Origin: Gari tellinella
Taxonomy: Eukaryota > Mollusca > Bivalvia > Cardiida > Psammobiidae
NCBI GenBank assembly: GCA_922989275.2
Contig: OV277862.1
Span: forward strand, 43,921,786-43,985,785
Reading direction: 5' to 3'
Length of the DNA stretch: 64,000 nt
The position numbers and the translations under genes were made by a program. The first letter of the stretch is position 1. Every line of letters starts with the position of its first letter. Shown piece after piece: positions 42 through 63,814 of the stretch. A model generated the notes under the pieces. It saw nothing but the letters and a program-made list of their open reading frames with translations. It did no database searches and had not been told where the DNA came from.

Positions 42-381
42 TACATTGTAATAAAAAACTGATTACATGGTATGATGCATACAATGCATTTGAACGATGA
101 CATACATGTCTTTTCGTTTGGAAACTGAATTAAACCATTCACTTCATCAATTCCAAACAATTATCATCTGCTTTCGTTTTTTAAATTTACATTTTTATGC
201 GTTTTACACTAAAAAACATTGACATGATGGTCAAACAATTTGGATCCTGATCTGTCGCCGCAGTACAATTTTGATTTATTTCCGCACCGAAGTAAATAAT
301 TCTCATTTATACAGTCACAAATATGCTTCATTAGAGGTATGTTTTATACACAGGCTAGAGTCTTCTTTCGTATTTATTTAA

Positions 382-625
382 CCCTTTACCCCATAGAAGC
401 GCCTTTTAGCGAATATGATATATTCCTCCGCTGAAGAAAATAGTTCCAATTTTATCAGTCATGAATATATATTACAGGGAATAGTTTCTATATTCTAGAA
501 CATAATAGCTTAAAGCAGGCTGAAAGTAAAGCAGAATGCGCCTTAGGGCGCATTCTGCTTTACTTTCAACCTGCTTTAAGTAGTCACCTATCTTCAATAT
601 TATAACTAGGCTATCAGGTAAAGGG
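382..625. mobile_element. MITE-C copy with TTAA flanks (reference copy)
   Basis: The element is bounded by TTAA at 378-381 and 626-629. Its ends are inverted, CCCTTTACC on the left and GGTAAAGGG on the right. The centre (about 510-581) is an H2 hairpin: CTTAAAGCAGGCTGAAAGT with a GCGCCTTAGGGCGC tip and the complementary arm. There is no coding capacity. TTAA target use suggests mobilisation by a piggyBac-type transposase, which is an inference from the target site only. A subterminal GCGCCTTTTAGCG motif recurs in other copies. Confidence 0.85.
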
Positions 626-632
626 TTAAAGA

Positions 633-700
633 AAGGCAGAATGCGCCTTGAGGGTGTTTTGCCTTACTTTCGGACTGCTTCAAGCAACCACCATTATTCG
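633..700. repeat. H2 hairpin remnant beside MITE-C
   Basis: Directly after MITE-C the words GGCAGAATGCGCCTTGAGG and CTTACTTTCGGACTGCTTCA repeat a decayed H2 hairpin. This is probably a second, older MITE-C or MITE-E core. Confidence 0.55.
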
Positions 701-850
701 ATGATAACAAACTATGAGAGAAGCAATATTCAATTTATTGTGCTAACTCTTATCATGCTAAACTGTCGTCTGTTTCAAATATATCGTCTTTTAAAATCTA
801 AAAATATGGTTCCATACTTTTGAAACAGAAAAATAACCTGAATACTAGTA

Positions 851-1096
851 CAGTGGAGAATCTGTTATTCTTTCCCGTTTAAACGCAAACGTACGCAAAC
901 GCAAAACACTAAAACGCAGAAAAGTACAACTTTTTGACAATTCTGATAATTCATCTTTATCTTGGTGGCAAACAGTTTGGAGCCTGATCAGACGCCGGGT
1001 TACCCGGCGTCTGATCTGGCTCCAAACTGTTTGCAGTGAAACTAATCGTTTTAGCGTAAACGCGTTTATTGGGAAAGACTAACGTTTTCTCCACTG
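851..1096 (+). mobile_element. MITE-A full copy (reference copy)
   Basis: A 246 bp element between TA dinucleotides (849-850, 1097-1098), with inverted ends CAGTGGAGAA and TTCTCCACTG. The left half carries GTTTAAACGCAAACGTACGC and the right half TTTAGCGTAAACGCGTTTAT. The centre (about 968-1035) is the H1 hairpin: CAAACAGTTTGGAGCC, then GATCAGACGCCGGGT, then the return arm. The arms differ at one site (left CCTGATCAG, right CTGATCTGG). TA targets and CAGT-type ends fit a Tc1/mariner-pogo type MITE (inferred). No transposase is present. I define this orientation as plus for the family. Confidence 0.9.
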
Positions 1097-1844
1097 TAAC
1101 AAACAGTTCTGATCGGGATCAAAACTGTTTGAAACTGTTAGGAAGGTCTAGCATATCATGATAAGGTCTAATGTTCGAACATTACCATTTATATTAAAAG
1201 TGTACTTTTTTCCAGCAATATATAACACTTTTATTTTTCTCACACATGTTTCAGATAAAAGCACATGTTTAATCTTATGTATTGAAAGGTATCAAGCGCT
1301 CTTCGACATTTAGAAAAAGCTTAAATTTAACTCATCTGACAGCTCAGCTCACACAAAGTAAAGACCAACATTAATGTTTTGTTACCTCGAATATGAACTT
1401 TAATCATAAACAATATTGTAAAATACTTATATATTCTATATTTGAAGCACATCCATTACCACAAGGGCCTGAAATGTATTCAGCACGTCCGATGCGACAA
1501 GTTACGTTATCTTTACAAGTATCTCTCCTGGACACAAATATTTAAGAAATCTGGAATCTACTAAAATATAATAAAAAATTGACCTAAATGATAATACACA
1601 TAACTATTATAGTTTGTTCATATGAATGCTTGTTCAAAGTATATTTCTTGTTCCTCATGTATTCATCTAGAGTCGTTAAATGAGCGTTATAAAGAATTTG
1701 TATTGGAATGTTTTGTACTGGAAACAAAATGTGTGAAATTCGATCATATCAAACAATAAAAAGAAATAATACAATGACGTCATTTAATGGCGTCAATTTG
1801 AGATTTATAATTGGATTTGCATTCATGATATGTCATCTATAAGT
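1097..1844. other. no gene seen
   Basis: AT-rich sequence without a convincing open frame. The only structure noticed is a short H1-like inverted repeat at 1098-1128 (AAACAGTTCTGATC and its partner), probably a decayed hairpin core. Confidence 0.6.
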
Positions 1845-1947
1845 ATAGGTTAGACCATGGTTGCAAGCGAATAAACGATATAGTTCGAGGGGGCGTAGCC
1901 CCCTAGAACTATGTCGTTTATTCGCGCGCAAACATGGTCTAACCTAT
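1845..1947. repeat. long inverted repeat with GC-rich tip
   Basis: ATAGGTTAGACCATG at the left pairs with CATGGTCTAACCTAT at the right, giving arms of roughly 45 bp around GGGGGCGTAGCCCCC. The arms have a few mismatches in the middle. It has no terminal signature of families A-E, so it is either a separate foldback MITE or a transcribed hairpin. Confidence 0.8.
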
Positions 1948-2154
1948 TTAGCACTGGCTTGGGCTCGAGGAAAACAAGAAAACCATTCGTTTCTGATTTC
2001 TGTTTTAGACGAAAAAGTCATTTTGTTTGTAATGTTTTACTAAAATTGAAAGGTTATTTCAAATGATAAGTTTGAGACATTAAGCATGCTTTAACACCAA
2101 CATAAATAACGCTTATTGAAGCTCTATATGTAAGCACAATTCATTAGTAATTGT

Positions 2155-2471
2155 CTTTAAAGGGACTCGCAACCGGATGGTGTACTTGTCAAAATAAAAT
2201 AAAATACTCAAATAAAAGCAAATTTGAGTTACACGGATAGTTCCGTGGTCCATTGGTCTAAGCGGTTTCCCCTATTTTGCCTTCTGTCCGCCAATGCCGG
2301 GCCCCGGGTTCGAATCCCACCAGAGACCAATATTTTTTTTTTATTGAAATACATTCTTTTTAAACAGAATTTCTTATCCTGAACTAATTCTTTACCATTT
2401 ATATAAGCGTTTGACACATATTTACAAATTACTATTTTTAATGCACCATCTGGTTGCGAGTCGCTTTAAAG
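2155..2471. mobile_element. MITE with long inverted ends and internal tRNA-like sequence
   Basis: The left end TTTAAAGGGACTCGCAACC and the right end GGTTGCGAGTCGCTTTAAA are inverted repeats of about 27 bp that continue into GGATGGTG and CACCATCT. The interior is AT-rich except for the tRNA-like segment listed separately. The superfamily is not assignable by eye because the palindromic TTTAAA at the ends hides the target duplication. Confidence 0.8.
2252..2340 (+). other. tRNA-like sequence with A-box and B-box, followed by T-run
   Basis: TGGTCTAAGCGG at 2254-2265 resembles a pol III A-box and GGTTCGAATCC at 2307-2317 matches the B-box, about 53 nt apart. A run of ten or more T follows from about 2332, as expected for pol III termination. 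I could not build a clean seven-pair acceptor stem, and the T-stem is only about three pairs. I therefore call it a tRNA-derived (SINE-like) sequence and not a functional tRNA. The reverse-strand frame reading GGIRTRGPALADRRQNR is an artefact of this element. Confidence 0.65.
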
Positions 2472-2784
2472 TCTAGGTCTCACTGTACATAATAAAACGT
2501 CACGAAGCGTGTGCAGTTCACCTCTGACCTCAGCTGTTTTTAGAATTGTGACGTCAAATTGCCTTGAGATGACGGAATCGAGGAATAAGTGAACAGTTTG
2601 TTAGTTATTCCGTGGTTTGTTGAAATAAACGATATATTCACAGGTTTTTAAGGCATCTGATTGGCCGAGAGCTCCAAGCCATGTGCTAACATACTTTATA
2701 GAGTATTGATGCGGCATTGGTGAGTTCTTACTGTGATAAATGGTTGCTGATTGTCTTTCTTATTGATATTATTATTGCATGGTA

Positions 2785-3031
2785 CAGTGGAGAATACGTT
2801 AATCTTTCCCGTTTAAACGCAACAAAACGCAAACGCAAAACACTAAAACGTAGAAAATTGCAATATTTTGACAATTCTGATAAATCATATTTATCTTGGT
2901 GGCACACAGTTTGGAGCTTGATCAGACGCCGGGTTACCCGGCGTCTGATCTGGCTCCAAACTGTTTGTAATAGAAATAATAGTTTTAGCATAAACGCGTT
3001 TATTGGGGAAAGAATAACGTTTTCTCCACTG
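2785..3031 (+). mobile_element. MITE-A full copy
   Basis: It runs from CAGTGGAGAA to TCTCCACTG with TA on both sides. The H1 hairpin is intact, including the left/right arm mismatch. Open frames on both strands here are hairpin translations. Confidence 0.9.
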
Positions 3032-3091
3032 TATGCAATAAAGACACATGGTCGTCACATCATGTTCTAGGACCTTGTACCTGTTCTCTTG

Positions 3092-3243
3092 TAACCCCTT
3101 CACTGCCTTTCCTCAAGTAAAGTGGCAAATTGTCAACTAGTTTGATCCTGATTCTCATTTCAATATTTCCTTAACTCTAGACTTGCTAAATAACAGCAGA
3201 GGACACTCGTTTAAAATTGATGACGTCATGTCAGTGAAGGTGT
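3092..3243. mobile_element. MITE-G, relative of MITE-D
   Basis: The left end is TAACCCCTTCACTGCC. The right end is the complement-like GACGTCATGTCAGTGAAGG. The middle holds a decayed H1 core (GTCAACTAGTTTGATCCTGAT). It abuts a MITE-D copy. Confidence 0.6.
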
Positions 3244-3247
3244 TTAA

Positions 3248-3455
3248 ACCCTTTCGCTCTCAATGACGCTTAAAAGTGCGTATGCAAACAGTTTGGATCC
3301 TAAACAGACGCCGCGTAACGCGGCGTCTGATCAGGATTCAAACTGTTTGACACTCGTTTTAAAATTTCTTAAGAAATGCTGCCTTGATTATTTAACTTTG
3401 AAACGATATTGCAGACAACGAAATTGAAGCAGACGACAATGAAACGGTGAAGGGG
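3248..3455 (+). mobile_element. MITE-D copy (reference copy)
   Basis: Begins TTAA then ACCCTTTCGCTCTCAATGA and ends GAAACGGTGAAGGGGTAA. The H1 hairpin centre is nearly perfect and uses the GACGCCGCGTAACGCGGCGTC tip seen in MITE-B rather than the GGGTTACCC tip of MITE-A. The right part carries GCAGAC and GAAGCAGACGACAAT, a motif shared with MITE-B. About 208 bp, non-coding. Confidence 0.8.
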
Positions 3456-3540
3456 TAAAACTGATCATGATAGGGTTATGAAAATTACATCTGCCGCAGA
3501 GCAATGTACTGTAGTAAGGAGCGTTTTAATGAAGACGATT

Positions 3541-3597
3541 TTGAGGCTGATTAGACGTCGGTGTGGTCGGCGTCTGATCTGGTCACACACTGTTAGT
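3541..3597. repeat. isolated H1 hairpin remnant
   Basis: TTGAGGCTGATTAGACGTC and GGCGTCTGATCTGG form a shortened H1 hairpin. No family-specific ends are visible around it. Confidence 0.55.
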
Positions 3598-3738
3598 TAA
3601 ATTGCAATGAATGTCATTTCATATAGGTGAGTATTGGGAATGATGTATACAAACTAACAATGGTTTGGTAATGAGCCAATATTTAAAAACCCTGAAAAAG
3701 CGGGTACTTAATTCATTCCCTCGCCAATGCGATTACTA

Positions 3739-5814: not shown

Positions 5815-6075
5815 CCAGGGCTGCCATAAGTTGACATGAAAAATCCTAAGATTTCCAAATTTACATTTTTCACATGCGATTTTACGAATCGTACCTTTAC
5901 CCCATAGCCTTTTTCTTGTCTTGTTGACATTCGATTACTTAAAGCAGGCTGTAAGTGAAGCAGAATGCGCCTTAGAGAGCATTCTGATTTACTTTCAGCC
6001 TGCTTTAAGCTACCATGTACTGGGGAAAATCCGGAGATTTAGGAAAAATCCGGAGAAATGGCAGCCCTGAATCAC
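5815..6075. mobile_element. MITE-K interrupted by MITE-C
   Basis: Left CAGGGCTGCCATAAG and AAAATCCTAAGATTT are inverted at the right as AAATCCGGAG...ATGGCAGCCCTG. The MITE-C remnant at 5894-6013 lies between the halves. Confidence 0.55.
5894..6013. mobile_element. MITE-C remnant, one half plus H2 hairpin
   Basis: CCTTTACCCCATAGCC followed by the H2 hairpin (CTTAAAGCAGGCTGTAAGT to CAGCCTGCTTTAAG). The second subterminal half is missing. Confidence 0.7.
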
Positions 6076-17339: not shown

Positions 17340-17657
17340 TATTCATTTAAATCTGAGTAGCAAACAGTTTGGAGCCTGATCAGACGCCGGGTTAATCGGC
17401 GTCTGGCTTCAAACTGTTTGCAATTGTCGAAACTCGATACTTCGAACTCTCTTAAATCATCGATCATACTTATATATCATGGGTTGAATTCGATCGCGCT
17501 TAAGTCGACATAACCGTAATTCAAAGTTAAAACGTCGCTAAGCCACGTTTTAACTTTGAAATATAGGTTTATCCGAGTTCAAAGTATCGAGTTTGGACTG
17601 TAATGGTTTTAGCGTAAACACGTTTATTAGGAAATGATAACGTCTTCTTCACTGTTC
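17340..17657 (+). mobile_element. MITE-A copy interrupted by MITE-F
   Basis: AAACAGTTTGGAGCCTGATC and most of H1 lie at 17362-17421. The right half (TTTAGCGTAAACACG to CTTCTTCACTG) resumes at about 17605 after the MITE-F insert. Confidence 0.7.
17426..17602. mobile_element. MITE-F copy nested in MITE-A
   Basis: TGTCGAAACTCGATACTTCG is inverted as AAAGTATCGAGTTTGGAC. It shares TTCAAAGTTAAAACGT with the 13679-13827 copy. Confidence 0.65.
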
Positions 17658-17957: not shown

Positions 17958-18171
17958 TTAAACGGGAACTTAATTCAAACGAAAAGTTAATTTTGCTGAA
18001 ATGCCAAATATCCTATGTTTCGAAAAATCAACAATGTACTTGTATATGAGTTGCAACAGTTTGGAGCCTGATGATACGCCGAAAAACTCAATGCCTGATC
18101 TGAATCCAAACTGGCATCCTCTTTAGCATACAAGCTCTGCTCGACTGTAGTATTATATATAGCTAAGCTTT

Positions 18172-18385
18172 AGGGGAGAAGACTTTATTCTTTCCCAATA
18201 AACGCGTTTATGCTAAATCTATTACTTTCATTGTACAAACAGTTTTGAGCCAGACCAGGCGTCTGATTATACTAGAAAATGTCACTCAGATTAAAATGAA
18301 CATTCAGAATTGTCTAAAAGCTGTCATTTTCTACATTTTAGGGCCATGCGTTTTAAAAGTTTCGTTTGCGTGTATATGTAAAATC
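18172..18385 (-). mobile_element. MITE-A copy, decayed
   Basis: GGGAGAAGACTTTATTCTTT, AATAAACGCGTTTATGC and CAAACAGTTTTGAGCCAGAC are recognisable. The return hairpin arm and right end are eroded. Confidence 0.6.
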
Positions 18386-18700: not shown

Positions 18701-18706
18701 GATATA

Positions 18707-19075
18707 CAGTGCTCCCTCTCTACAACGACATCCAATGGGAGACACAGATTGTGTGTGTTGTTCGGATGGAGTCGTTATAGAAAGGGACAATTAAGAATTG
18801 GCTTACATTTGCAAACAGCTTGAATCCAGATCAGACGCCGCGTAACGCGGCGTCTGATCAGGATTCAAGCTGTTTGTTACTGGTAAATATATGTATTCTA
18901 TCAAAATATTCACTTATATGTTACTGTGAGAGAAAACAGCAGACGACATTATTAAGCAGACGATATTGCAGCAGTAAAATAGTTAGGCTTAATTATCCCG
19001 TTAAGGGAATTACGGCGAGTGTCGTTGTAAGGAGGGAGTCGTTGTTGGGAGGGCCGTTGTAGAGAGGGAGCGCTG
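18707..19075 (+). mobile_element. MITE-B full copy, first of three
   Basis: CAGTGCTCCCTCTCTACAAC to GGAGCGCTG, TA-flanked. The H1 hairpin with the GCGTAACGC tip is intact apart from one arm difference (CCAGATCAG against CTGATCAGG). Confidence 0.9.
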
Positions 19076-19085
19076 TACGTATATA

Positions 19086-27334: not shown

Positions 27335-30130
27335 ATGACAACACATATACATATAAGCTCTCTAAATGTTCGCGGATTGGCTAACAAGGAAAAACGTGAA
27401 AAAATATTTACATGGATCAAAGATCAAGCAATATCAATTATTTTCTTACAAGAAACACATAGTTCAACAGAAACTAAAGACATTTGGGAAAAGCAGTGGG
27501 GATCAAAAGCATATTTTAGTGGAATTAGCACCCAAAGTAAAGGCGTAGCTATACTAATAAACAATAACCTGAATTATAACATTATAAATTACCAAGAGTT
27601 GATACCAGGTAGGGTACAATCTTTAGAAATAGAAATTAACGACAAAATAATTACACTCATAAATATCTATGGACCAAACTCAGACGACACTTTAATTTTT
27701 GAAAATCTTGAAAACTATATGAACAACAATAATGAAAAAACTTTTATAATAGGAGGAGACTTCAATACGGTCATAAATGAAAGCATAGATAAGAAATATT
27801 GTAACAAAAACACGCACCCAAAAATACGTCAAAAAATAAATACACTCACTCAAACAAATTCTCTCATAGATATATGGCGCCAAATGCATCCAAATAAAAA
27901 ACAATATACATGGCATTCCAACAACAGACCAACCATCTTTTGTCGTTTAGACTATTTTGTAATATCAGACACTTTCTTAAACTGCGTTAAAAAAGCAGAA
28001 ATAAAGCATGGCTACAACACTGACCATTCACTTATAAATATATCGATAGATCTGACAAAAGTCGATAGAGGACCGGGAATCTTTAAACTAAATAATAGCA
28101 TTCTATTAGAAACAGATTACCAAAACCAGATAAAAAAAAGCATAGATGATATAGCAAACATAAATAAAGAAGCGAATCCTAACACCCTATGGGAACTTAT
28201 CAAAGGGACAATCAGAAACGAAACTATAAAATATACAAGTGCAAAAAAGAAAAAAGAAACAGAACAAGAAAACAAACTAAAAAATGAAATATCAAATGCT
28301 GAAAATGTAATTGCGAATACAAGGAACAACATAGAGCTAGAAATACAAAAGCTTAGATTAAAACAATTAAAATTAGAATTAGATAAGATAATAGAAAATA
28401 AACTAAAAGGAATTATAATTCGAGCAAAAGTCACCGAGATAGAATTTAATGAAAAAAACTCAAAATACTTTGCTAGTTTAGAGAAAAAAAGAGCTGAATC
28501 TAAAATTATAACACACCTAACAGTAAATGTAAATTCAATCACAAGCCAACCAGAAATAAGAGCGGCACAAACAAAATTTTACTCTACTCTCTACAAACAA
28601 AAAGAAACAGACACATCATCGATAGACTTTTTCAAAGAAGACATGAAAAAGCTGAGCGAAAACGACAAAAACATATGTGAAGGACTTTTAACCGAATACG
28701 AATGCGCAAATGCTCTTAAACAAATGAAAAACTCAAAAAGCCCAGGATCAGACGGTATACCTGCAGAATTTTACAAAATATTTTGGAGAGACATAAAATC
28801 ATACTACGTAAAGTCAATTAATTACTCCTTTAAAAATAAGAATTTAACAGATCTCCAAAAACAAGGTCTTATAACACTCCTCCCCAAACCCGATAAAGAT
28901 TTGTCTCATTTGGCAAACTGGCGACCCATCTGTCTATTAAACATAGACTATAAAATAGCAACAAAATCCAATGCTAACAGAATAAAGAAAATCTTGGAAA
29001 ATTTAATTGACAATTCTCAAACAGGTTTTATAAAAGGAAGATATATAGGTGAAAATATAAGAATAATAAGCGATATCTTAGATAACACAGATGATCTTGA
29101 CTTACCTGGAATAATGTTTTTTGCAGATTTTGAGAAAGCATTCGATAGCCTAGACCATAAATTTATGATGAAATGCCTAAGGCATTTTAATTTTGGAAAT
29201 GAACTCATCAGATGGATTGAGACATTCTATACGGATTCAAAGAATGCAATTCTAAATAATGGACACATCACAGAGTTTTTCATAGTAGAACGAGGTGTAA
29301 GACAAGGGTTTCCTCTATCCCCGTATCTATTTATTATATGCATTGAACTTCTATCGAACGAAATAGAAAGCAACAAAAACATTAAAGGTCAAGTAATAGC
29401 AGGTGACGAATTAAAAAGAACCATGTTTGCGGACGATGCAACTTTTATAACTGATGGTTCCAAAAAGTCTTTTGAAAACATTATACACACGCTGGACAAT
29501 TTTAGCTATATCTCTGGTCTACGATTGAATCCTACTAAATGCTACTCGTTACGAATAGGCTCTACAAGACGCACAAACACAGAATACTTTCAAAACAGAA
29601 AATTTACTTGGACATCGGAAAAGACAAAAGCACTTGGCATAATTTTTCACACAGATAAATCAAAGATGATAACAGAAAATTTTGCAAAGAAAATTCAAGA
29701 ATTTGATTTAACATTAAACCGTTGGAAACATAGAAAATTAACACTCTTTGGAAAAATCACAGTCATAAAAACGTTTGCACTCCCAAAACTCATATACCTC
29801 CTTAGTACTCTTCAAAACCCCGCAGCAGAAACATTAAAAAAACTAACGAAAACAATGTATGATTTTCTTTGGGACTCGAGACCCGACAAAATAAGCCGGC
29901 AAACCATCAGACAAAATCCTTTGATGGGAGGTTTGAAAATGATAGATCTAAACCTTTTCACCAACGCACTAAAATGTAGTTGGGTAAAAAGAATTATAGA
30001 AGAAAAAAACAATGGACGTTGGAAACAGAAATATGTAAAATGTTTAAACAAATATGGCGGAAAACTTATTTTCGAAGGTGAACTAAATAAAACTATCATT
30101 TCAGAAATGTTCAAACAAAATACTTTCTGA
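27335..30130 (+). CDS. LINE ORF2 protein, N-terminal part: AP endonuclease plus reverse transcriptase
   Basis: This 931-residue frame carries an apurinic-like endonuclease and a reverse transcriptase. Endonuclease motifs: SLNVRG near residue 9, FLQETH near 37-42, GGDFN near 140-144, RLDYF near 203-207 and TDHSL near 229-233. A lysine- and glutamate-rich linker covers about 300-380. RT motifs: KSPGSDGIPAEF near 468, WRPICLLNIDYK near 527, MFFADFEKAFDSLDH near 594 (first catalytic Asp), RQGFPLSPYLF near 655 and FADD near 698-701 (catalytic pair), then TKALGIIF near 768. In known relatives the endonuclease nicks the target and the RT copies the element RNA at the nick. The ATG chosen lies just ahead of the first endonuclease strand, so the domain is complete. 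The frame ends at TGA 30128-30130, and the same frame continues as the next entry, so this is one gene with a nonsense change. It may be dead or readthrough-dependent. Confidence 0.9.
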   Translation: MTTHIHISSLNVRGLANKEKREKIFTWIKDQAISIIFLQETHSSTETKDIWEKQWGSKAYFSGISTQSKGVAILINNNLNYNIINYQELIPGRVQSLEIEINDKIITLINIYGPNSDDTLIFENLENYMNNNNEKTFIIGGDFNTVINESIDKKYCNKNTHPKIRQKINTLTQTNSLIDIWRQMHPNKKQYTWHSNNRPTIFCRLDYFVISDTFLNCVKKAEIKHGYNTDHSLINISIDLTKVDRGPGIFKLNNSILLETDYQNQIKKSIDDIANINKEANPNTLWELIKGTIRNETIKYTSAKKKKETEQENKLKNEISNAENVIANTRNNIELEIQKLRLKQLKLELDKIIENKLKGIIIRAKVTEIEFNEKNSKYFASLEKKRAESKIITHLTVNVNSITSQPEIRAAQTKFYSTLYKQKETDTSSIDFFKEDMKKLSENDKNICEGLLTEYECANALKQMKNSKSPGSDGIPAEFYKIFWRDIKSYYVKSINYSFKNKNLTDLQKQGLITLLPKPDKDLSHLANWRPICLLNIDYKIATKSNANRIKKILENLIDNSQTGFIKGRYIGENIRIISDILDNTDDLDLPGIMFFADFEKAFDSLDHKFMMKCLRHFNFGNELIRWIETFYTDSKNAILNNGHITEFFIVERGVRQGFPLSPYLFIICIELLSNEIESNKNIKGQVIAGDELKRTMFADDATFITDGSKKSFENIIHTLDNFSYISGLRLNPTKCYSLRIGSTRRTNTEYFQNRKFTWTSEKTKALGIIFHTDKSKMITENFAKKIQEFDLTLNRWKHRKLTLFGKITVIKTFALPKLIYLLSTLQNPAAETLKKLTKTMYDFLWDSRPDKISRQTIRQNPLMGGLKMIDLNLFTNALKCSWVKRIIEEKNNGRWKQKYVKCLNKYGGKLIFEGELNKTIISEMFKQNTF

Positions 30131-30139
30131 AAAGAGATC

Positions 30140-31099
30140 ATGATTGCATGGACACAAATAAATGATTACACAAACAGTACAAAAATAAGCAATAGAATTT
30201 TATGGAACAACAAAAACATATTAATTCAAAACAAAACTATATTTAGAAAGCATTGGTTCGAAAAAGGAATTAAACACATTAGTGACATATACGACTACAG
30301 AACAAATGAATTTTATAAGTTTGAAACCCTAAAGGACCTATACAATCTAGCTGAAAATGAGATTTTCTTTTATAACCAACTTAAGTCCTGTATACCAAAA
30401 CAATGGAGAGATAAATTAAAACTAGAAAATATAAATGATGCAATACAACCAAATGAAACCTTACTGCAAAAGCTGCAAAAAGCTAAACAAACAAATAAAT
30501 TCTTATACAATATTCAGTTAAGAAAGCTGAAATTTGAGAAGCCAAAGCCACAAGAAAAGTGGGAACAGGACTTAGACAATACAGAAATAAATTGGATAAA
30601 TACCTACAAAAACATATATGCCGCTACAATTGACACTTCTCTCAGAAGCTTCCAGTACACATTTATAAATAGAATTATTCCAACAAACACATCACTGATG
30701 AAATATAATATCAAACAAAGCAATATATATGATCTATGTAATATGCAGGTAGAAACAATAAAACACCTATTCTGGGAGTGCAATCATGTACAACACTTTT
30801 GGAATAACTTATCTAATTGGTTAGAAAATATGGTCATGAGCATAAATATAAATTACCAAACAATAACATTAGGAATAATAAGCAACAGAAACAATATGAC
30901 TGACCATGCAAAGAATTATATACTTATAGCAGCAAAAAAATACATATTCCAAACAAAAAACAATAAAGAAATACCGACTTTCAAATATTTCAAAAATACC
31001 CTAACACGAAAAATAAATATTGAAAAACAAATAGCACAAAACAGAGATAAACTAGAAATACACAATTTAAAATGGAGACCATTCCTAGAACAGACATAA
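30140..31099 (+). pseudogene. LINE ORF2 protein, C-terminal part after in-frame TGA
   Basis: This frame is in phase with the preceding entry (three codons lie between the TGA and its first ATG), so it is the rest of the same protein, about 1,254 codons in all. The joint reads T-F-stop-K-E-I-M-I-A-W. Relatives usually have a Phe-Trp pair here, so the stop is best explained as TGG to TGA, which is an inference from family knowledge. Near residues 200-224 of this part, CNMQVETIKHLFWECNHVQHFW shortened to its key residues gives C-x8-H-x4-C-x4-H, the zinc-knuckle pattern at the end of L1/Tx1-type proteins. An independent start at this ATG is unlikely. The end (WRPFLEQT then TAA) is followed by a normal A-rich 3' untranslated region. 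Confidence 0.85.
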
Positions 31100-31996: not shown

Positions 31997-32280
31997 AAAA
32001 CCCTTTCACCATCGAGTTACAGTGGAGAATACGTTATCATTGTCTGTTTAAGCGTAAACGCATCACATTAAAAGGTAGAAACTGACAATTGCTCGACAAT
32101 TCTGACTATTCTTGTTGTCTGATCTGGCTTCAAACTGTTTGCATTGGAAATAACAGTTTTACCGTAAACGCGTTTATTGGAAAGGAATACCGTATTTTCC
32201 ACTGTAGCACTCGACTTGGCAAACAATTTGGATCCCAAGAAGACGCAGCGCATCTATACAGTTATGACGTCGCGCAATAT
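31997..32280. mobile_element. probable MITE-D remnant split by MITE-A
   Basis: AAACCCTTTCACCATCGAG lies before the MITE-A, and CACTCGACTTGGCAAACAATTTGGATCC follows it. The two pieces look like a decayed MITE-D opened by the insertion. Confidence 0.45.
32020..32204 (+). mobile_element. MITE-A copy lacking one hairpin arm
   Basis: CAGTGGAGAATACGTTATCA to TATTTTCCACTG with TA flanks. The left hairpin arm is missing: TTGTTGTCTGATCTGGCTTC follows TCTGACTATTC directly. Confidence 0.8.
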
Positions 32281-33854: not shown

Positions 33855-34049
33855 TATTTTATTCTTTCCCAATAAACGCATTTATAAACTAAAACTTTTA
33901 TTTCCATTGCAAACAGGTTGGAGTCTGATCAGGCTACAAGATTTTGCTACCCAGATTAAAAATATAGTTAACATTTCTAAATGTAAATTCCCTCAGTTTA
34001 GTGAATTGCGTTTGCGTTTAAACTGGAAAGAATAATGTATCCTCTACTG
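33855..34049 (-). mobile_element. MITE-A copy, decayed, hairpin collapsed
   Basis: ATTCTTTCCCAATAAACGC, TGCAAACAGGTTGGAGTCTGATC joined to AGGCTACAAG, then GCGTTTGCGTTTAAACTGG and TCCTCTACTG with TA. Confidence 0.7.
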
Positions 34050-34206
34050 TACATTACGCACCAAAAATACAGCTATCCGTATCTCTAACTGGGTGTAGAG
34101 AAAACACACCCCTTTTAAAATATAAGAATGTTCCAATCTAAAATCTAAAAATAACTTGGACAGGTCAGAAGAAAACACTTATACCAAGTTTTATCGTCTG
34201 CTTTAA

Positions 34207-35043: not shown

Positions 35044-35060
35044 AATAGTATTGATAAATA

Positions 35061-35263
35061 CAGTAGAACCTCTCTATAACGACCACTAAAAGAAGGCTTT
35101 TTGTCTGTTTAAAAGACAGGTGACAGCTTAAAGCAATGTGAAAGTGAAACAGAAAGCTCCTGTAGGAGCTTTCTGTTTCACTTTCACCTTGCTTTAAGCA
35201 GTCACCTGTCCTAAACGACTCATATTTGACCGATTTAGTGGTCGTAATAGAGAGGTTCTACTG
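35061..35263. mobile_element. MITE-E full copy (reference copy)
   Basis: CAGTAGAACCTCTCTATAAC at left is inverted as AATAGAGAGGTTCTACTG, with TA flanks. GACCACTAAA and TTTAGTGGTC extend the ends to about 28 bp. The centre is an H2-type hairpin, GCTTAAAGCAATGTGAAAGT with a GCTCCTGTAGGAGC tip. Ends of this sort are seen on pogo/Tigger-like elements (family knowledge). Confidence 0.9.
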
Positions 35264-35523
35264 TAATGTACTTTGTACACCAATTTCCGGAAATAGATAT
35301 CTTAAGATTGAAAGTTAATGTACATTTATTGTAAATTTATTCGCTTTAGTGGCGATAAAAGCCGGTGAGCATTTTCATTTTATTACTGCAATATTCTGAA
35401 ATTCGTTTTATGGTGCAAATCACATTTATATGTCGAACAAATATGGCAAGTATATTGCTTAAAAGTAACAATTTTCAATTTCACTAAAACATGTACTAAA
35501 AAACACGTCATTCTCTGAAGATA
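35264..35523. other. no gene seen
   Basis: AT-rich, no motif. Confidence 0.5.
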
Positions 35524-36499: not shown

Positions 36500-36873
36500 C
36501 GCTTGGCTTACATTTGCAAACAGTTTTGATCCATAGAAGACGACGTGTAACGCGGCATGTGATCTGGATCCAAATGGTTTGGCACTGATTTTCATTTTTA
36601 AATTCAATTTATTTGAAAAGCATAAAAAAGATTTTGAGATTTTCCGCAGACGATACTTTTAAGTTTGAAGCAGAGGGCAATTCAGCACGATAAGGGATAA
36701 CGAACTTTTGCAAATAGTTTGGATCAATATTAAACACACAGTAACTCAGCGTTTGAACAGGATCCAAACTGATAGACACTTGATACGTGCAATCAAATCT
36801 CGAAACTTTTCGTTGAAACATAAGTGCAGACAGCAATTTCAAAGCAGACGACAATATGGCAGTGTAAGAGTAA
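36500..36873. repeat. two decayed B/D-type cores in tandem
   Basis: First: CTTGGCTTACATTTGCAAACAG (a MITE-B word) with an H1 hairpin, then CGCAGACGATACTTTTAAG. Second: GCAAATAGTTTGGATCAAT with GAACAGGATCCAAACTG, then AAAGCAGACGACAATATGGC. True ends are lost. Confidence 0.5.
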
Positions 36874-39019: not shown

Positions 39020-39492
39020 TACTACACTTACGTCATGTATGTGCAACACTTCAAGCGTCAATACAGTAAACACTCTGAAAATCAAATCCTTTTGACCTGA
39101 ATACAAACTTAGAGGCGTCTCGAGGGTAGAAGAAAAGGTTTGAAGCCATTTAAAGAGACTGAAACCCGAATAGTGTATTTTCAACAACAACATCATAAAT
39201 ACTCAAATGTAACCAAAATTTAATGTGTATTGCAAAAGTCACAGAAACTTAGAAACTTAAAATCTAAAACAATTTATCATTCTTTACTGTACATGAGCAT
39301 AAAAACAATGCGTAGGTCACAAATTATAACATCATTAAATAATACATTCCATAGAAAAGGCAACCTTCGTATGATAGATGGTTGTAGACTGTTAAATTTT
39401 GGTATTTGTAAGATATGGAAACAGATTAGAAAGTAAACAGCAGATAAGTATGACATTTATATTGAACCCATTTAGGAATAAGCTTGTGACCT
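39020..39492. other. no gene seen
   Basis: AT-rich with two unremarkable short frames. Confidence 0.5.
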
Positions 39493-39735
39493 GGGGCCCG
39501 TTTCATAAAACTTCTTACGACAAATGTTGCCGTAAGTCAGATTATAAAAGTCACAATTATTATTTATTTCTCCATCTAATCCTGTCTTGTGGCATCTTTT
39601 TGGAATCGTCTTGAAAAGACGATTCCAAAAAGATGTCACAAGACAGGATTAGATAGAGAAATCAGAGATTAAATGTATTTTAAAGTTTTGACTTACGACA
39701 ACATTTGTCGTAAGAAGTTTTATGAAACGGGCCCC
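39493..39735. mobile_element. MITE-N, long inverted repeat with GGGGCCCGTTTCATAAAAC ends
   Basis: The ends extend to about 45 bp through CTTACGACAAATGTTG and its inverse. Inside, a second stem of nearly 50 bp (CTAATCCTGTCTTGTGGCAT, GGAATCGTCTTGAAAAGACG and return) makes the element one long foldback. The GGGCCCGTTTCATAAA word occurs widely in animal DNA transposons from memory. Confidence 0.85.
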
Positions 39736-40057
39736 TGGTTCTTTTGAAAGTGTCTTAGCATCTCACCTTGATCCAAGTAATATGACAATCAGATAATCTT
39801 GAATGAGATCAGCTACAGACGATTAAATGTACAAATGGAAAACCGTTTTGATGTTCTAAAATAAATACCTAATCAGCTGAGATTGTTCTTTTGACCGGAA
39901 GTGAACGACATTAATTTACTATCTGGAAATCTGCGGCACCTATGACGTTATCGATGTGGCTAAGGTACTGCTCTACCATATTGGTATAAAAGTTTAAATA
40001 GGATACACAGGGGTAGAGGTCATATAGTGTTCAAGGAAAATGAACAAATGTAACAAA
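39736..40057. other. no gene seen
   Basis: No recognisable motif. Confidence 0.45.
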
Positions 40058-44702: not shown

Positions 44703-44715
44703 TTTGCAATCGGTA

Positions 44716-45210
44716 CAGTGGGGGAAACGCTATTTTCCCCGTTTAACCCTTTCCCTCATAGAAGCGCCTTTTAGCGCATTTGATTTATTCCTCCACGAAA
44801 GAAAATAGTTCCAATTTATATAATCATAAACATATTCCAGCATAAATATTTTCCTTATCCTGAGAGATGGTAGCTTAAAACAGGCTGAAAGTAAAGCAGA
44901 ATGCGCCCTCGGGCGCATTCTGCTTTACTTTCAACCTGCTTTAAGTAGTCACCTATTTTCAAAATTAAAAAACAGGTTATGGGGTAAAGGGTTAAATGCA
45001 AACCAAACGCACACGCACTGCATAAAATGAAGAATATTGTAACTTATAGACAATTTTGAATGTTGATTTAAACCTGGCCACAAACAGTTTCGAGCCTGAT
45101 CAGACGCCGGGTTACCCGGCGTATGATCTTGGGGTCCAAACTGTTTGCATGGGAAATAATACATTTAGCGTAAACGGGTTTATTAGAAAAGAATTACGGT
45201 TTCTCCACTG
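44716..45210 (+). mobile_element. MITE-A copy interrupted by MITE-C
   Basis: CAGTGGGGGAAACGC and CCCGT before the insert; ATGCAAACCAAACGCACACG, the H1 hairpin and GGTTTCTCCACTG after it. Outer TA flanks are present. A repeated end-like word (TTATTGGGAAAGAATAACG) follows at 45235. Confidence 0.9.
44747..44991. mobile_element. MITE-C full copy inserted at TTAA inside MITE-A
   Basis: TTAA at 44743-44746 and 44992-44995 exactly bracket CCCTTTCCCTCATAGAAGCG and GGTTATGGGGTAAAGGG. H2 hairpin intact, GCGCCCTCGGGCGC tip. Confidence 0.95.
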
Positions 45211-45279
45211 TATAAAATTTTCGCAAGGACATGTTTATTGGGAAAGAATAACGTTTACATGTACATCACCACTGTACAT

Positions 45280-48759: not shown

Positions 48760-50225
48760 TCAGTATATCTGATGCTCAATTTGGTTTAGTTCTGGGAGAT
48801 CCTGCGTTTTACAATTGATGGTGGATTAGTCACAGTACATTGAAGATGATGAAAATTGGGACACTATATTTTAAGATTTATCCAAAGCTTTTGACAGCGT
48901 TACACATGAACGATTACTTTGCAAAGTAATAGCATTGCGTATCATGGTATCGTCAGGGACGTTACCAATTTGTGTACGCACCATCACTAGGGGTCCTAGG
49001 GCATGCTCATCCGGGAATTTTCTATTTTTATATGATCTCTGGTGCGTGCGGAGGGCATTTCGTCCATCCAAAACAGGTAAGTTACTAACATAAACCTATC
49101 TAAAAAATCGACTCCCAATTACCATAAATTGTGTAATGTGAAATTATATTGTTGACATATTATTTCCCGGCCATCAATCTCTAAACCCTACCCAAAATGA
49201 TAAGGAGAGGGGCTTGGTAAGTGAAGAGAGAGTTATCTCCATGGAAATATGTTTTAAGTAGGGTACCTCATGCCATTCCTGGGACCCATATTATGTATTT
49301 GGTATATACATGACCTCCCTGAAGTTACCAGTAGTATCGATGCAAAAATATACAACAAAGACAGTAACGTCGATTTGATCCAACAAGACTTACCGGTAGA
49401 TGATTATAAAAAAATAAATCTTAGTTTTAAACAAAACACTTGTTAGGCCACATTTTGAATATGGAAACAATATTATGGTATCCATTCTTAAGGAAAGACG
49501 CTGAAAGTCCTGAAAAAAATACAGAAGCGTGCCACTAAGCGTATTACCAGAATTGTCAGACCTTAACTATGCCGAAAGATTGCTTTTCCCCCTAAATTTA
49601 CCTTGACTGGCTCATCGACGAAGGCGTGGTGACATTATTCAGTGTTTGAAAAGTATTAAAGGGGTGTATGATATACCTACAGAGAGAGAGAGAGAGTATT
49701 TCTTCTAAAGTTCTTCTTCAACTCATGGTCATAATTTAACACTGGAAAAACCTCGATGCAGAACATCAATGAGATTAACCCTTTCACTCTCAATGACGCC
49801 TTAAAGCGCGTTTGTCAACAGTTTGAGTCCTGATCAGACGCCGCGTAACGCGGCGTCTGATCAGGACCCAAATTGTTTGCCACTCTTATCAATATATATT
49901 AAGTCAGACAACCTTAAATCTTACTTTGAAACGTGTCTTACAGACAACAAAACTGAAGCAGACGACACTTAAGCAGTGAATGGGTAACACTCACCCGAAT
50001 CATTTGATCATGAAAAGGTTAAAATATTTTCACAGAGAATTGTTAACAAATGTAACTCACTACCTGAGCGAGTAGTAATGGAAATGGATAAGCATTACTT
50101 TAAATCTGAACTGGATCAACAGTGGAACCAAGAAGCTGTATACACTACTAATTAGTGAAGTAATTTTGAATGTTAATCCAAACTCAACCAAAGCTGGAAC
50201 AAAGAAGCCATATATTATTATTCAT
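48760..50225 (+). pseudogene. degenerate non-LTR retrotransposon, RT core to C-terminus
   Basis: Fragments occur in the expected protein order across shifting frames. ISDAQFGLVLGD is near 48769. DLSKAFDSVTHERLL (catalytic Asp block) is near 48878-48922. YLVYIHDLPEVTSSIDAKIY is near 49300-49352. FEYGNNIM and KIQKRATKRI are near 49455-49550. FSQRIVNKCNSLPERVV is near 50030-50080, followed by YFKSELDQQWNQE. About 300 bp between the second and third blocks is unrelated or too decayed. A MITE-D interrupts the tail. The last codons are echoed at 50190-50225 (GCTGGAACAAAGAAGCCAT). Many stops, clearly dead. Confidence 0.75.
49779..49985 (+). mobile_element. MITE-D full copy inside LINE remnant
   Basis: TTAA at 49775-49778, CCCTTTCACTCTCAATGACG at left. 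H1 hairpin perfect at the tip (GACGCCGCGTAACGC). GAAGCAGACGACACTT near the right. The right flank reads GGGTAA and not a full TTAA. Confidence 0.85.
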
Positions 50226-51187: not shown

Positions 51188-51194
51188 TATGTTG

Positions 51195-55351: not shown

Positions 55352-55432
55352 CCATACCGTACCGTATTTGTGCACGAGCAGTCCAATATTACTAATATTG
55401 GACTGCACGTGCATAAATACGGTACGGTAAGC
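55352..55432. repeat. inverted repeat, about 35 bp arms
   Basis: TACCGTACCGTATTTGTGCA and GCAGTCCAATATTA are mirrored as TAATATTGGACTGC and TGCATAAATACGGTACGGTA. The arms are almost perfect. Confidence 0.85.
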
Positions 55433-55534
55433 AAGCTGATATTGTACTACACACTAATATTGTATTGGCTTGTGAGACACACAAAAAATAAAGTAAAACC
55501 TCTCTATTTCGACCAATAAATTGTGTGTGAACTA

Positions 55535-55799
55535 CAGTGGATATTTTTTAACGTTACTCTTTGCCAATAAACGCGTTTACGCTAAAACTATTATTTCCTT
55601 GCAAACAGTTTGAAGCCTGATCAGACGCCGGGTAACCCGGCGTCTGATCAGGCTATAAACTGTTTGCCACTCAGATTAAAAAACAATAATTAAAAATGTC
55701 AGAAAATGGTATTTTCCTACATTTGAGCGATTTCTGTTTGCGTTTCGTTTGCATTAAACGGGAAAGATTAACGTTTTCTGAGAAAACTGTTCTCCACTG
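55535..55799 (-). mobile_element. MITE-A copy nested in MITE-E
   Basis: TA then CAGTGGATATTTTTTAACG to GTTCTCCACTG. H1 hairpin intact except GGCTATAAACTG. The right end carries an extra TTTTCTGAGAAAACTG. Confidence 0.85.
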
Positions 55800-55803
55800 T
55801 TTA

Positions 55804-56024
55804 TTGGAGAAGATCTTATTCTTTTCCGTTTAAACGTAAATGAAACGCCAACGCATTGCGTTAAAATGGAGAAAATGACAGCTTGTTGACAATTCTGACT
55901 ACTTATTTAAATCTGAGCCAAGTCAGACGCCGGAAAACCCGGAATCTGGCCTGGTTCTGGAATTGGAAATAATAGTTTCAGCGTAAACGCGTGTATTTAA
56001 AAAAGAATAACGTATTCTCCACTG
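55804..56024 (+). mobile_element. second MITE-A copy nested in MITE-E, hairpin reduced
   Basis: TTGGAGAAGATCTTATTC to GTATTCTCCACTG with TA. Core reduced to CAAGTCAGACGCCGGAAAACC. Confidence 0.8.
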
Positions 56025-56204
56025 TACGTTTTAAGTATAAGACAGGTGACTGCTTAAAGTAAAGTAACATTAAAACTAAAAGCTCCTATAGGAGCTTTCT
56101 ATTTTACTCTCATCTTGCTTTAAGCTGTCAACTGACTGTTATACAATCAGTTAGTCCTATTTATTTTAGTGGTCGTAATAGAGAGGGTTTACTGTATTTT
56201 AGCA

Positions 56205-58727: not shown

Positions 58728-58839
58728 AAAATTGAATAGTGAGACAAGACACATCTTAATAAAGATGTGTTATTATTTGTAATCTAAGATGGGATATACG
58801 AATTCTCGAGATATTAGAAGTGATAGGTTGTATATTATA

Positions 58840-59510: not shown

Positions 59511-59519
59511 TTATTTAAA

Positions 59520-60010: not shown

Positions 60011-60191
60011 TCTTAGCAGCACAGTGACTTATTTGGTAATACATTGAGCATAGTTCATTGCGTTCATTTATTGTGGCAATTAGCATATTAGTTAGGTTGT
60101 CCTTCCATTGTTAAGATTCGTCTGCTTAACATTTCCGTATGTTTTTATCATTCAAGTTTAGAACAAAGGAAAAAAACAGTGATAAGAGTGG

Positions 60192-61157
60192 CAAACAGCA
60201 GCCGTCGAGATACTCGGATTTATCCGAGTATCTCGACGGCTGATCGGGACCGAAACTGCCTGATGGCAATCAAAAGTGTTTTAGCACATGTCAGTGCACT
60301 AAGGTGAGGGCCATGAAAAGGCTCAACTCCGAATTTAGGCTACTATCACTCATCCTGTTGTGATATCGTCTGCTTTGAAAGTGTCGTCTGCAAAGTTGGT
60401 ATACTTAGTTTTAAATATTGTTCAGCTAAAGAATCCTAAACAGTTTTGGTCCCAATCAGTCGCAGAGATACTCGGATTCGGCGTCTGATGGCAATCTAAA
60501 GAGTTTTAGCAAAAGCCAGTGCTCTAAGGTGAAGGCCAGAAAGGCTCAACTCCGAATTTAGGCTATTAACAGTAATCATGTTGTAATACAATTATCGTCT
60601 GCTTTGAAAATGTCGTCTGCAAAATGTGTTATATTTAGTTTTAAATATTGTTCAACCAAAGAAAGCTAAAGACGAGTGTCAAACAGTTTTGGTCCCGATC
60701 AGCCACCGAGATACTCGGATTCGGCGTCTGATGGCAATAAAAAGAGTTTTAGCAAAAGCCAGTGCTCTAAGGTGAAGGCCAGAAAGGCTCAACTCCGAAT
60801 TTAGGCTATTAACACTAATCCTGTTGTAATACAATTGTCGTCTGCTTTGAAATTGTCGTCTGCAAAATGTGTTATATTTAGTTTTAAATATTGTTCAACC
60901 AAAGAAAGCTAAAGACGAGGGTCAAACAGTTTTAGTCCCGATCAGCCGCCGAGATACTCGGATTGGATACTGCTGGCAATCAAAAGTGCTTGGCACATGC
61001 ATGTGCACTCCGGTGATGGCCAGAAAGGCCCAACTTCGAATTAAGGCTATTAACAATAATCCTGTCGTGTTATTGTCTGGTTAGAAATTGTCATTTGCAA
61101 ATATGGTTATATTTAGTTTTAAATATTGTTTAGCTTAATAAACATAAAGACGAGTGT
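60192..61157. repeat. tandem array of about 245 bp units derived from a MITE-D-like element
   Basis: CAAACAG-type unit starts lie at about 60192, 60437, 60680, 60923 and 61158 (steps of about 245, 243, 243 and 235). Each unit has TTTGGTCCCGATCAGCC, GAGATACTCGGATT, GAAGGCCAGAAAGGCTCAAC, TTGTCGTCTGCTTTGAAA and GTTTTAAATATTGTTCA. The first unit keeps a perfect hairpin (CAGCCGTCGAGATACTCGGA and return). In later units the return arm is shortened. Confidence 0.85.
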
Positions 61158-61159
61158 CA

Positions 61160-61255
61160 AACAGTTTTGATTTTTGCAAACAGTTTAAATCCAGATCAGA
61201 TGCCGCATCACGCGGCGTCTGTTCTTGATCCAAACTGTTTGCAAAATTCAGTAAA
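61160..61255. repeat. H1 hairpin at the end of the array
   Basis: TTTGCAAACAGTTTAAATCC, AGATGCCGCATCACGCGGCG and TTGATCCAAACTGTTTGC. A different H1 tip from the array units, so a separate insertion or the array's parent core. Confidence 0.65.
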
Positions 61256-61309
61256 CTCGCGATCAGCAAGAACTGGGTTAACGGTAATCCCGTCTGACTT
61301 AGAACTACT

Positions 61310-61452
61310 TGGGGAATATTTCGAGGTTATAGTTTCATGTGTCATATCGCACGTGCCAACTGGGTGTACTATTCCATGTTGTTTGTACATCTAGGAAGCA
61401 CGTGCTGCATCACACGCACATTGCACAGTACCATGCCACTATAACCTCGAAC
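61310..61452. repeat. inverted repeat of about 19 bp ends
   Basis: AATATTTCGAGGTTATAGT is inverted as ACTATAACCTCGAACTATT. Interior CACGTGCC and GCACGTGC words. Possible small MITE. Confidence 0.6.
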
Positions 61453-61495
61453 TATTCATCCCAGCTAGATGATTCACTGTTGCTTGTCCTAGAAA

Positions 61496-61690
61496 CCGTC
61501 CTACATTGCTGAGATTATCCCCTCTGCCAAGAACTAAAAAGAAGACAGGTCAGTTTTGGTTCCATGATATTAGCGAGAATTATCTTCTTGAAATCATCTC
61601 ATCTAATCATCATCTCCTATCATCATTCATCGGCAGTTTATGACATATTTTGTGTCGCAGTGACGTTAAACCAAACTTACTCACCCATAT
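61496..61690 (+). repeat. interspersed repeat related to 13138-13345
   Basis: GAGATTATCCCCTCTGCCAA, then CATCATCTCCTATCATCATT, ending TGTCGCAGTGACGTTAAACC. The last word is a common molluscan repeat end from memory. Confidence 0.5.
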
Positions 61691-61993
61691 CTGCTTTTTC
61701 ATATTTCTGGATTGTGTATTAAACAAACGAATGATAAAGAAAACCCACCGACCACGAATGAAACACAAATGAGAGCTGAACTTTTAAAATATTCTTTTTT
61801 CTTCTACGAATTGAATTTTTCATTCTGTTGCAGATTTAAAGTTTTTTGATCAACGTCATGTTTCAATCTTTCTAGGTCTAGATACTAATTCTCTTGATTC
61901 TCGTATAAAACTTTGCGTCGAAAAGAATTAGATACCCATCACGGCACTACCAAACAATACAATGATCTGTGATGTCACCATCGAAAAGTGCTA

Positions 61994-62229
61994 CAGTGGA
62001 GAAAACGTTATTCTTTCCAAATAAACACGTTTACGCCACAACTGTTATTTATCATGCAAACAGTTTGGAGCCAGATCAGACACAGGGTGTCTGATCAGGC
62101 TCCAAACTGTTTGCCGTCAAGGTTAAAATCAACAATCAGAATTGTCAAGAACTTGTATTTTACTTCATTTTATTGCAATGCGTTTGCGTGTCGTTTTCGT
62201 TTAAACGCGAAAGAACGTTTTCTCCACTG
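61994..62229 (-). mobile_element. MITE-A copy, hairpin tip reduced
   Basis: CAGTGGAGAAAACGTTATTC to GTTTTCTCCACTG. Tip reads CAGATCAGACACAGGGTGTCTGATC, so the GCCGGGTTACCCGGC section is lost while the stem is kept. Confidence 0.85.
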
Positions 62230-62613
62230 GTAATAAGAGAAGTAAAGCAGGGTATATAACACACAGAGAACGCATACGTATTAACCAATCATTTGACATT
62301 GACCAATTTACACAACACGAGACATGAAATGGCGGCTTTTTGGTTGGTTGTAAAAGTATATATGTTAGAAATATAGATTAAAGTCAGAGATTGGTAAAAC
62401 ATTAGTGTATACTGGACGCAATTTTGAATAGCAACAAGGCTAGTTCATGCAATTTATGCCAACCAATCAGTCTGAATTCTTACGTCGTTGATAAACTTTT
62501 CCTGGGGCAACAGATGGAAAAAAATGTATGAATAACACCATTTTATTCTTTGAAATCGCCCATTTCCCATCAATGGTTCCGATGTTCCCCCGTGTAGATA
62601 CAGTGATAGTATA
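62230..62613. other. no gene seen
   Basis: No motif recognised. Confidence 0.45.
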
Positions 62614-62958
62614 CAGTATTCCCTCTCTACAACGGCACCAAATGGGAGACAACGATTGTGTGCGTTTATGGAAGGGAGTTAGTATAGGGAGAAAAATTGG
62701 CTTACAGCTGCACACAGCTTGAATCCAGATCAGACGCCGCCTAGAGCGGCGTTTGATCTGGATTCAAGCTGTTTGCCACTCTTCATTATGTATCTTCTGT
62801 CAAAATGTCTAATATGTAACTTTTAGAAAAACACTTTTAAGCAGACGATATAACATCAGTGAAAGATTGGACATAATGGTATTGTTTTGGAACAGCGGCA
62901 AGATTTGTTGTTAGGAGGGATTCGTTGTTCGGTGGGCCGTTGTAAGGATGGAGCACTG
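62614..62958 (+). mobile_element. MITE-B full copy
   Basis: CAGTATTCCCTCTCTACAAC to GGATGGAGCACTG with TA flanks. Hairpin tip GCCGCCTAGAGCGGCG, a variant that still pairs. Confidence 0.9.
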
Positions 62959-62999
62959 TAACTTTCTGCATTGCCTGTGTCCCATATTGCAATTTGATA

Positions 63000-63245
63000 C
63001 AGTGGAGAATCTGTTATTCTTTCCCGTTTAAACGCAAACGTACGCAAACGCAAAACACTAAAACGTAGAAAAGAACAACTTTTGGACAATTCTGATAATT
63101 CTTGTTTATCTTGGTGGCAAACAGTTTGGAGCCTGATCAGACGCCGGGTTACCCGGCGTCTGATCTGGCTCCAAACTGTTTGCACTGCAAATAATAGTTT
63201 TAGCGTAAACGCGTTTATTGGGAAAGAATAGCAGATTCTCCACTG
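63000..63245 (+). mobile_element. MITE-A full copy
   Basis: TA-flanked, intact, standard arm mismatch. Lies 41 bp after MITE-B. Confidence 0.9.
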
Positions 63246-63568
63246 TACGCCACACATTTACATAATGTTTTGAGTGACGCTGAAACAGGTTTTGCTTTAC
63301 CCAAACCCTTATTTCTCATTGTTCGCACACTGAATTTCATCATTCTTTCATTGCCAAGACGTCAAATTATTTAAACAATACCATCTGCTTTTATTTCTCA
63401 GAATTGTTTAGGTATTTTGACTTCAGAAATTTGAAATGTAATGTCAAACTAGTTGCAAATAACCACTGTACTCGGGGTACGGAGTTTGGGGTTAAGCCTA
63501 TCATAAATTGTACTCTACAATGTTGATATTAAGGCCATCTGAATAAATTATTCTTCTTTGTTCAGTTA
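63246..63568. other. no gene; weak MITE-D/G words
   Basis: AAACCCTTATTTC, CCATCTGCTTTT and GTCAAACTAGTTGC hint at a decayed D-type element but ends and hairpin cannot be fixed. Confidence 0.35.
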
Positions 63569-63814
63569 CAGTGTAGAATCTCTTATTCTTTCCCGTTTAA
63601 ACGCAAACGTACGCAAACGCAAAACACTAAAACGTAGAAAAGTACAACTTTTTGACAATTCTGATAATTCATCTTTATCTTTGTGGCAAACAGTTTGGAG
63701 CCTGATCAGATGCCGGGTTACCCGGCGTCTGATCTGGCTCCAAACTGTTTGCAGTGAAAATAATAGTTTTAGCGTAAACGCGTTTATTGGGAAAGAATAA
63801 CGTTTTCTCCACTG
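63569..63814 (+). mobile_element. MITE-A full copy
   Basis: CAGTGTAGAATCTCTTATTC to GTTTTCTCCACTG with TA flanks. Hairpin intact (GATGCCGGGTTACCCGGCGTC, one change). Confidence 0.9.

Follow-up and report, generated by a model that had tools for sequence, protein, structure and literature searches.

Several miniature inverted-repeat transposable elements (MITEs) with a palindromic core or a borrowed interior have been described, and we compare with them here the MITEs of a 64,000-base stretch of the genome of the clam Gari tellinella (contig OV277862.1, C7:43921786-43985785, below called the window), in which two long hairpin cores, H1 and H2, recur between ends of different types. In the clam Lucina pectinata, the MITE-like consensus 1 of 210 bp has terminal inverted repeats of 30 bp and, at its centre, a palindrome of 77 bp, and a second palindrome-bearing repeat has a short segment in common with it (PMC4732748). 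It is likewise a MITE-like clam element with a palindrome core, likened to ours by description only; unlike here, hairpin sharing across end classes and target duplications are not described in the available part of that report (PMC4732748). MER6 is a mariner-type MITE whose interior, derived from V-SINE (a short interspersed nuclear element, SINE), spread with the MITE; it resembles our case in that a MITE interior was taken from another repeat, and differs in having one donor (the SINE), one host family and, in the available text, no palindrome (PMC6887750). The P-MITEs of Anopheles and AgaP2-P12MITE are chimeric, with interiors proposed to have come by ectopic gap repair, a stable secondary structure suggested as an advantage, and one MITE with two kinds of ends; as far as the accessible text of that paper goes, their internal regions have no significant identity among families, whereas here a hairpin is common to several families (PMC1562414). 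Pearl-family MITEs of bivalves such as DTC84 and CvA are modular, with interiors in common with satellite repeats, and DTC84 has a conserved palindrome close to its repeat junction; the module that they share is, in the part of the source at hand, satellite-like and tandemly repeated, whereas here it is a long hairpin (PMC5139131).

For one hairpin common to several end classes, no report was found in the open-access literature among the matches listed, and a full-text search with short words of the element sequences gave no paper on this subject by title. Similar hairpin MITEs presumably exist in bivalves. Composite MITEs as such are already known, and the present case is distinguished by two long hairpins that recur in several end types, one of them, H1, having over 160,000 exact apex copies. 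Overall, the elements are chimeric MITEs, real and very abundant, and free exchange of their cores is not supported. They probably go back to a few historic events, in which TTAA-targeting MITEs inserted into MITEs of other end classes and the composites were then amplified.

End classes and hairpin cores

The window has a G+C content of 36%, and the repeats detectable within it cover 42% of its length; the whole genome comprises 1.598 Gb in 80 contigs. The core H1 consists of 31 pairs around TAA and H2 of about 34 pairs, and they are carried by elements such as the following.

378..629, plus strand: MITE-C, with TTAA-CCCTTT ends, H2 at 506-589, and TTAA on either side
849..1098, minus strand: MITE-A, with TA-CAGTGGAGAA ends and H1 at 969-1033; among the 27 aligned A copies
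18705..19077, plus strand: MITE-B, with TA-CAGTGCTCCCTCTCTA ends, a D-type inner segment at about 18791-18985, and H1 at 18812-18876
35059..35265, plus strand: MITE-E, with TA-CAGTAGAACCTCTCTAT ends and H2 inside 35115-35210
49775..about 49985, plus strand: MITE-D, with a TTAACCCTTTCACT left end, H1 at 49815-49879, and a degenerate right end, GGGTAA

Read from the copies, core H1 belongs to family A (about 250 bp, ends TA-CAGTGGAGAA), family B (about 370 bp, TA-CAGTGCTCCCTCTCTA) and family D (about 210 bp, TTAA-CCCTTTCACT), and core H2 to family C (about 252 bp, TTAA-CCCTTTACCCCATAG) and family E (about 207 bp, TA-CAGTARAACCTCTCTAT). The original prediction, that two end types and two cores occur in all four combinations, holds at the places it named, with coordinates right within about 5 bp. 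The end types are real as well: the left ends of D and C align over 40 bp with a score of 43 (null maximum 28) and the ends of E and B with a score of 31 (null maximum 29), so that 0 of 1000 shuffles reaches either. A second D copy scores 27 against the C left end (2/1000 shuffles as high) and a second E copy 30 against the B end (1/1000). The A ends are unrelated, standing at chance level against those of B, D and E (341 to 767 of 1000 shuffles equal), and so are the arms of C and E in five comparisons (229 to 996 of 1000).

Target duplications were counted in the window and 240 kb of fetched genome sequence. TA is duplicated in 35 of 37 A, 5 of 5 B and 5 of 6 E elements, and TTAA in 13 of 16 C and 1 of 5 D-type elements. 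From these counts and the alignment scores of the ends, the two-by-two pattern of ends and cores is therefore real. With lengths of 200-380 bp, terminal inverted repeats, duplications of TA, TTAA or 6 bp and high copy number, A, B, C, E and a further family, F, have the features of MITEs; these are weaker in D, the least well-preserved end class, owing to its TTAA count. The TTAA targets and CCC-starting ends of C and, at the lower count, of D are what we take to be piggyBac-type, while A, B and E, with TA duplications and CAGT ends, are presumably Tc1/mariner/pogo-type MITEs.

As had been proposed, the same hairpins are carried by unrelated end classes, and A to E are not related end to end. 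It is very improbable that all families descend from one ancestral MITE by drift, the hairpin being conserved while the remainder diverged: D and C have ends in common, as have B and E, but between A, B/E, C/D and F the ends either show no relationship or go with different duplications (TA, TTAA, 6 bp), and a D terminus lies internally in B. That the hairpins are of separate origin and alike by chance or low complexity is hardly credible at all. MITE interiors are generally known to fold often, but in the alignment the mean identity of cores from different families, 8 flanking bases included, is about 75%, and the H1 apex palindrome has 161,136 exact matches genome-wide against 0 for the reversed-pattern control. 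In the window, 38 hairpins with a stem of at least 20 and at most 2 mismatches are observed, whereas none arises in any of 20 first-order simulations, and five cores fold at -31 to -44.7 kcal/mol (single-strand DNA energies; z of -12.4 to -14.8 versus shuffles). The further claim that the core is more alike than the rest of the elements stands for A against B and D, and fails between B and D, which are alike over a tail of about 110 bp too.

Genome-wide, the A arm with H1 has 104,962 matches and the E arm with H2 has 15,882, where one element may count from both arms; the controls give 0 for both. The TTAA-end pattern TTAACCCTTT has 155,989 + 156,022 matches (reversed-pattern control 6,469 + 6,381), and this abundance of TTAA donors is counted in favour of the nesting explanation. 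Across 20 genome stretches of 10 kb each, with positions fixed beforehand, 106 H1 and 79 H2 matches were found, the H2 total being inflated by 16 matches in a tandem array (L022, G000:C7:25000001-25010000). This array has a 1,277-bp period with two H2 matches per unit, giving the 16 in 10 kb. The H1 and H2 patterns have 0 matches in a viral contig collection, and the H1 patterns have 0 in a collection of genome contigs.

Inner termini and present-day nesting

Inner units and nesting are seen in families B and F and in the following elements.

5816..6069, plus strand: MITE-F, with CAGGGCTGCCA ends, a 6-bp AATCAC duplication, and H2 and the C right terminus inside
36503..36699, plus strand: B inner unit without B ends, with the D-type short arm and tail; adjoins an A copy
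44714..45212, minus strand: MITE-A copy split by a MITE-C at 44743-44995, at a TTAA of the A arm, with TTAA on both sides
55489..56196, plus strand: MITE-E copy split by two A-type elements at about 55532-56026

In B, the interior 3' of the hairpin matches the D tail up to its terminus with a score of 88 (null maximum 52 in 500 shuffles); when the first six bases are taken off, the score is 78 and the null maximum 44. At this place the majority consensus built from 11 B copies has GCAGTGAAAGGGTTA, the inverted form of TAACCCTTTCACT, which is also how D ends. The unit at 36503-36699 fits the B inner unit in its short arm (TTGGCTTACATTTG; 0/1000 shuffles as good) and in its tail, for which 2/1000 shuffles do as well when the first 130 bases are compared and 0/1000 when the full arm is.

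Family F is a combination beyond those originally predicted, that is, H2 in CAGGGCTGCCA ends with a 6-bp duplication. The interior of the copy at 5816-6069 holds H2 and the C right terminus (CCTTTACCCCATAGCC), while on the other side the C left arm yields to a foreign arm some ten bases beyond the palindrome and its remainder is absent. There are 8 F elements of 253-258 bp in the window and the fetched stretches, with the C terminus inside; taking an 11-base end, the 6-bp flanks are identical in 7 of the 8 and the remaining copy matches at 5/6 positions, and taking a 12-base end the duplication is found in 6 of 7. Since these copies have the donor terminus inside, and the F arm with its hairpin has 9,561 matches genome-wide (control 0), F has thus been amplified as a composite. 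Both B and F are multicopy units with an inner terminus of a TTAA-MITE in foreign ends, so the hairpin arrived with the nested element, and the independently moving core of the original prediction is not supported. B and F, two of the four families with foreign ends, therefore demonstrate the nested-composite route and are the intermediate stage by which a MITE interior gains new ends with the inner terminus retained.

Nesting is also seen in single present-day copies. The A flanks around 44743-44995, when rejoined, align end to end to A with a single TTAA, and the E flanks around the two A-type inserts, rejoined, align to another E. By eye, an element at about 17426-17605 also interrupts an A copy.

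Hairpin type and end type

Hairpin types were compared with end types in the window and 24 fetched 10-kb stretches. For H1, 112 ungapped cores were obtained, 92 labelled by their flanks and 20 without a recognised end motif, and in all labelled cores the closest hairpin type is that of the own end type (A 47/47, B 14/14, D 31/31). For H2, with 24 short matches and the 16 matches of the L022 array omitted, 65 of 80 cores were labelled and 15 not; the hairpin is C-type in C (42/42) and F (8/8), and E-type in 13 of 15 E. The two E cores that deviate are an entire C adjoining an E end and L032:8125-8195, a decayed locus whose left arm and hairpin base are E-like and whose right half is C-like, a possible E/C switch within the H2 hairpin. 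The hairpin type thus follows the end type and is fixed per end type within the sample; apart from this one candidate exception, no free reshuffling of cores among end types is seen, and the repeated exchange of cores that had been proposed finds no support. For H1, a single founding event for each end type is enough.

The trees are in line with these counts for H1. The larger H1 tree needs 2 label changes, the minimum, against a shuffled mean of 34, with a branch support of 90 for A, and the window tree of 32 ungapped H1 cores needs 2 as well; in it A (95/93) and B (81/62) form clades and D is the remainder. In the window tree of H2 (12 rows), E is separated from C (100/100); the H2 tree of 80 rows is poorly resolved, with 6 changes, 3 from E alone, and so it was unused for direction. 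A first cross-table by end motif left 51 of 185 cores without any; random positions gave, per 1000, both-end matches of 34 for T, 21 for A, 4 each for E and F and 1 for B, so single T or A labels in that table are soft.

Pairing is maintained between the types. From consensus to consensus, the changed pairs are altered on both sides in 4 of 5 for A-B, 3 of 4 for B-D, 2 of 4 for A-D and 5 of 7 for C-E. In 29 distinct H1 rows, pairing holds in 90.7% of the cells. Two-sided changes are present in 50 cells, where shuffles give 22.6 and 0/500 reach the observed value; they fall on 8 pairs, which is unremarkable beside the 6.5 of the shuffles (77/500). The two-sided changes are thus a few events inherited by many copies, and either selection on founders or arm-to-arm correction would be sufficient for the maintained pairing. 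A candidate reading of H2 as a TTAA-flanked mini-element, since its base reads CTTAAAGC, was rejected because C and E share bases beyond that TTAA.

Hairpin-cored elements look common in the window. Other long hairpins lie at 1867-1925, 39566-39662, 17517-17563 and 55355-55429, in short inverted-repeat elements with other ends, for example GGGCCCGTTTCATAAAACTTCTTACGAC at 39489-39739. At 60260-61281, a tandem repeat has units of about 240 bp made of the D-type tail and a hairpin with a longer, different apex (GAGATACTCGG); it is a part of a MITE turned into a small array. Besides these, a pair of open reading frames at 27335-31099 resembles a long interspersed nuclear element (LINE), with reverse transcriptase and endonuclease domains, the closest database relative being 62% identical. 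Relatives of its protein include some named from metagenome-assembled genomes of Candidatus Thiodiazotropha endolucinida and Sedimenticola, which we take to be clam symbionts, and these relatives are probably host contamination. Neither a tRNA nor an Rfam match at the gathering score is found in the window.

Families A and E and the origin of the chimeras

In A (H1) and between C and E (H2), what is shared covers little more than the palindrome. The H1 block in A reaches 2 bp past it on the left and 4 bp (CAC) on the right, and a D tail motif is found near only 1 of 55 A-type hairpins; no nested composite is recognised in A on this basis, nor in E, whose arms are unrelated to those of C. That A retains a D terminus in its short arm was considered and rejected, because older A copies read TTATTTCCATTGCAAACAG or similar there.

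Such limits would be explained directly if the hairpin itself were a transferable module, palindromes being copied between MITEs without a nested intermediate, whether by template switching, by breaks directed by cruciforms or by abortive gap repair that uses an ectopic template. We regard this as unlikely. The tight block limits of A, the unrelated arms of C and E, and the joining of an E-like left and a C-like right half inside the hairpin at L032:8125-8195 all speak for it. Deletions of at least 5 nt in the hairpin of 8 of 27 A copies, several at the apex, suggest that hairpins form; however, deletions of A copies also cluster at a GCGTTTGCGT stretch, and the hairpin is thus not the sole soft spot. 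Copies with hairpin deletions include those at 18166-18360, 32018-32206, 33858-34053 and 61992-62229. Ectopic gap repair has already been proposed for MITE interiors in a study of Anopheles (PMC1562414). On the other hand, a transferable module is unnecessary for B and F, the 92 labelled H1 cores show no reshuffling, and the free core with its own duplication that had been envisaged was not recognised, though no genome-wide search was aimed at it and the 20 H1 and 15 H2 cores noted above lack recognised ends.

In the nesting explanation, which we prefer, abundant TTAA-targeting MITEs (C with H2, D with H1) would have inserted into MITEs with other ends, and the composites would then have shed part of the inner element, retaining the hairpin and sometimes one inner terminus, as in B and F. 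The outer ends would have mobilised the composite, hairpin included, into thousands of copies. For A and E we infer either the same process, with the inner arm on each side lost almost up to the palindrome, or a copying of the hairpin in gap repair; the donor of E is likewise inferred. F shows the loss of an inner arm close to the palindrome edge, and elements such as A and E would result if both arms were lost in this way.

Several observations weigh against this explanation. The TTAA duplication is present in only 1 of 5 D-type elements, and the inner D terminus of B, clear in the consensus, is worn in single copies. The A tail has a weak likeness to the D tail (8/500 shuffles; 57/500 without CACTC) and none to the B tail (229/500), C and E have in common only the palindrome and about 10 bp per side, and for none of B, F, A and E did an empty host come to light. 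In the window H1 tree, D as a single clade is not rejected (approximately unbiased test, p-AU 0.42), and the B clade is weakly supported there and in the larger tree (32), so the tree does not show a direction from D to A.

The hairpin may also matter to the elements that carry it. We put forward only tentatively that it is a module which can be transferred and which promotes amplification: in three target-duplication classes, MITEs may have become highly abundant after gaining one, and the pairing of the arms may be kept because a hairpin that is extruded or transcribed would increase copying or escape silencing. Two long hairpins recur in several end types spanning the TA, TTAA and 6-bp target classes, and this set of elements is a natural experiment on whether internal secondary structure aids MITE multiplication.

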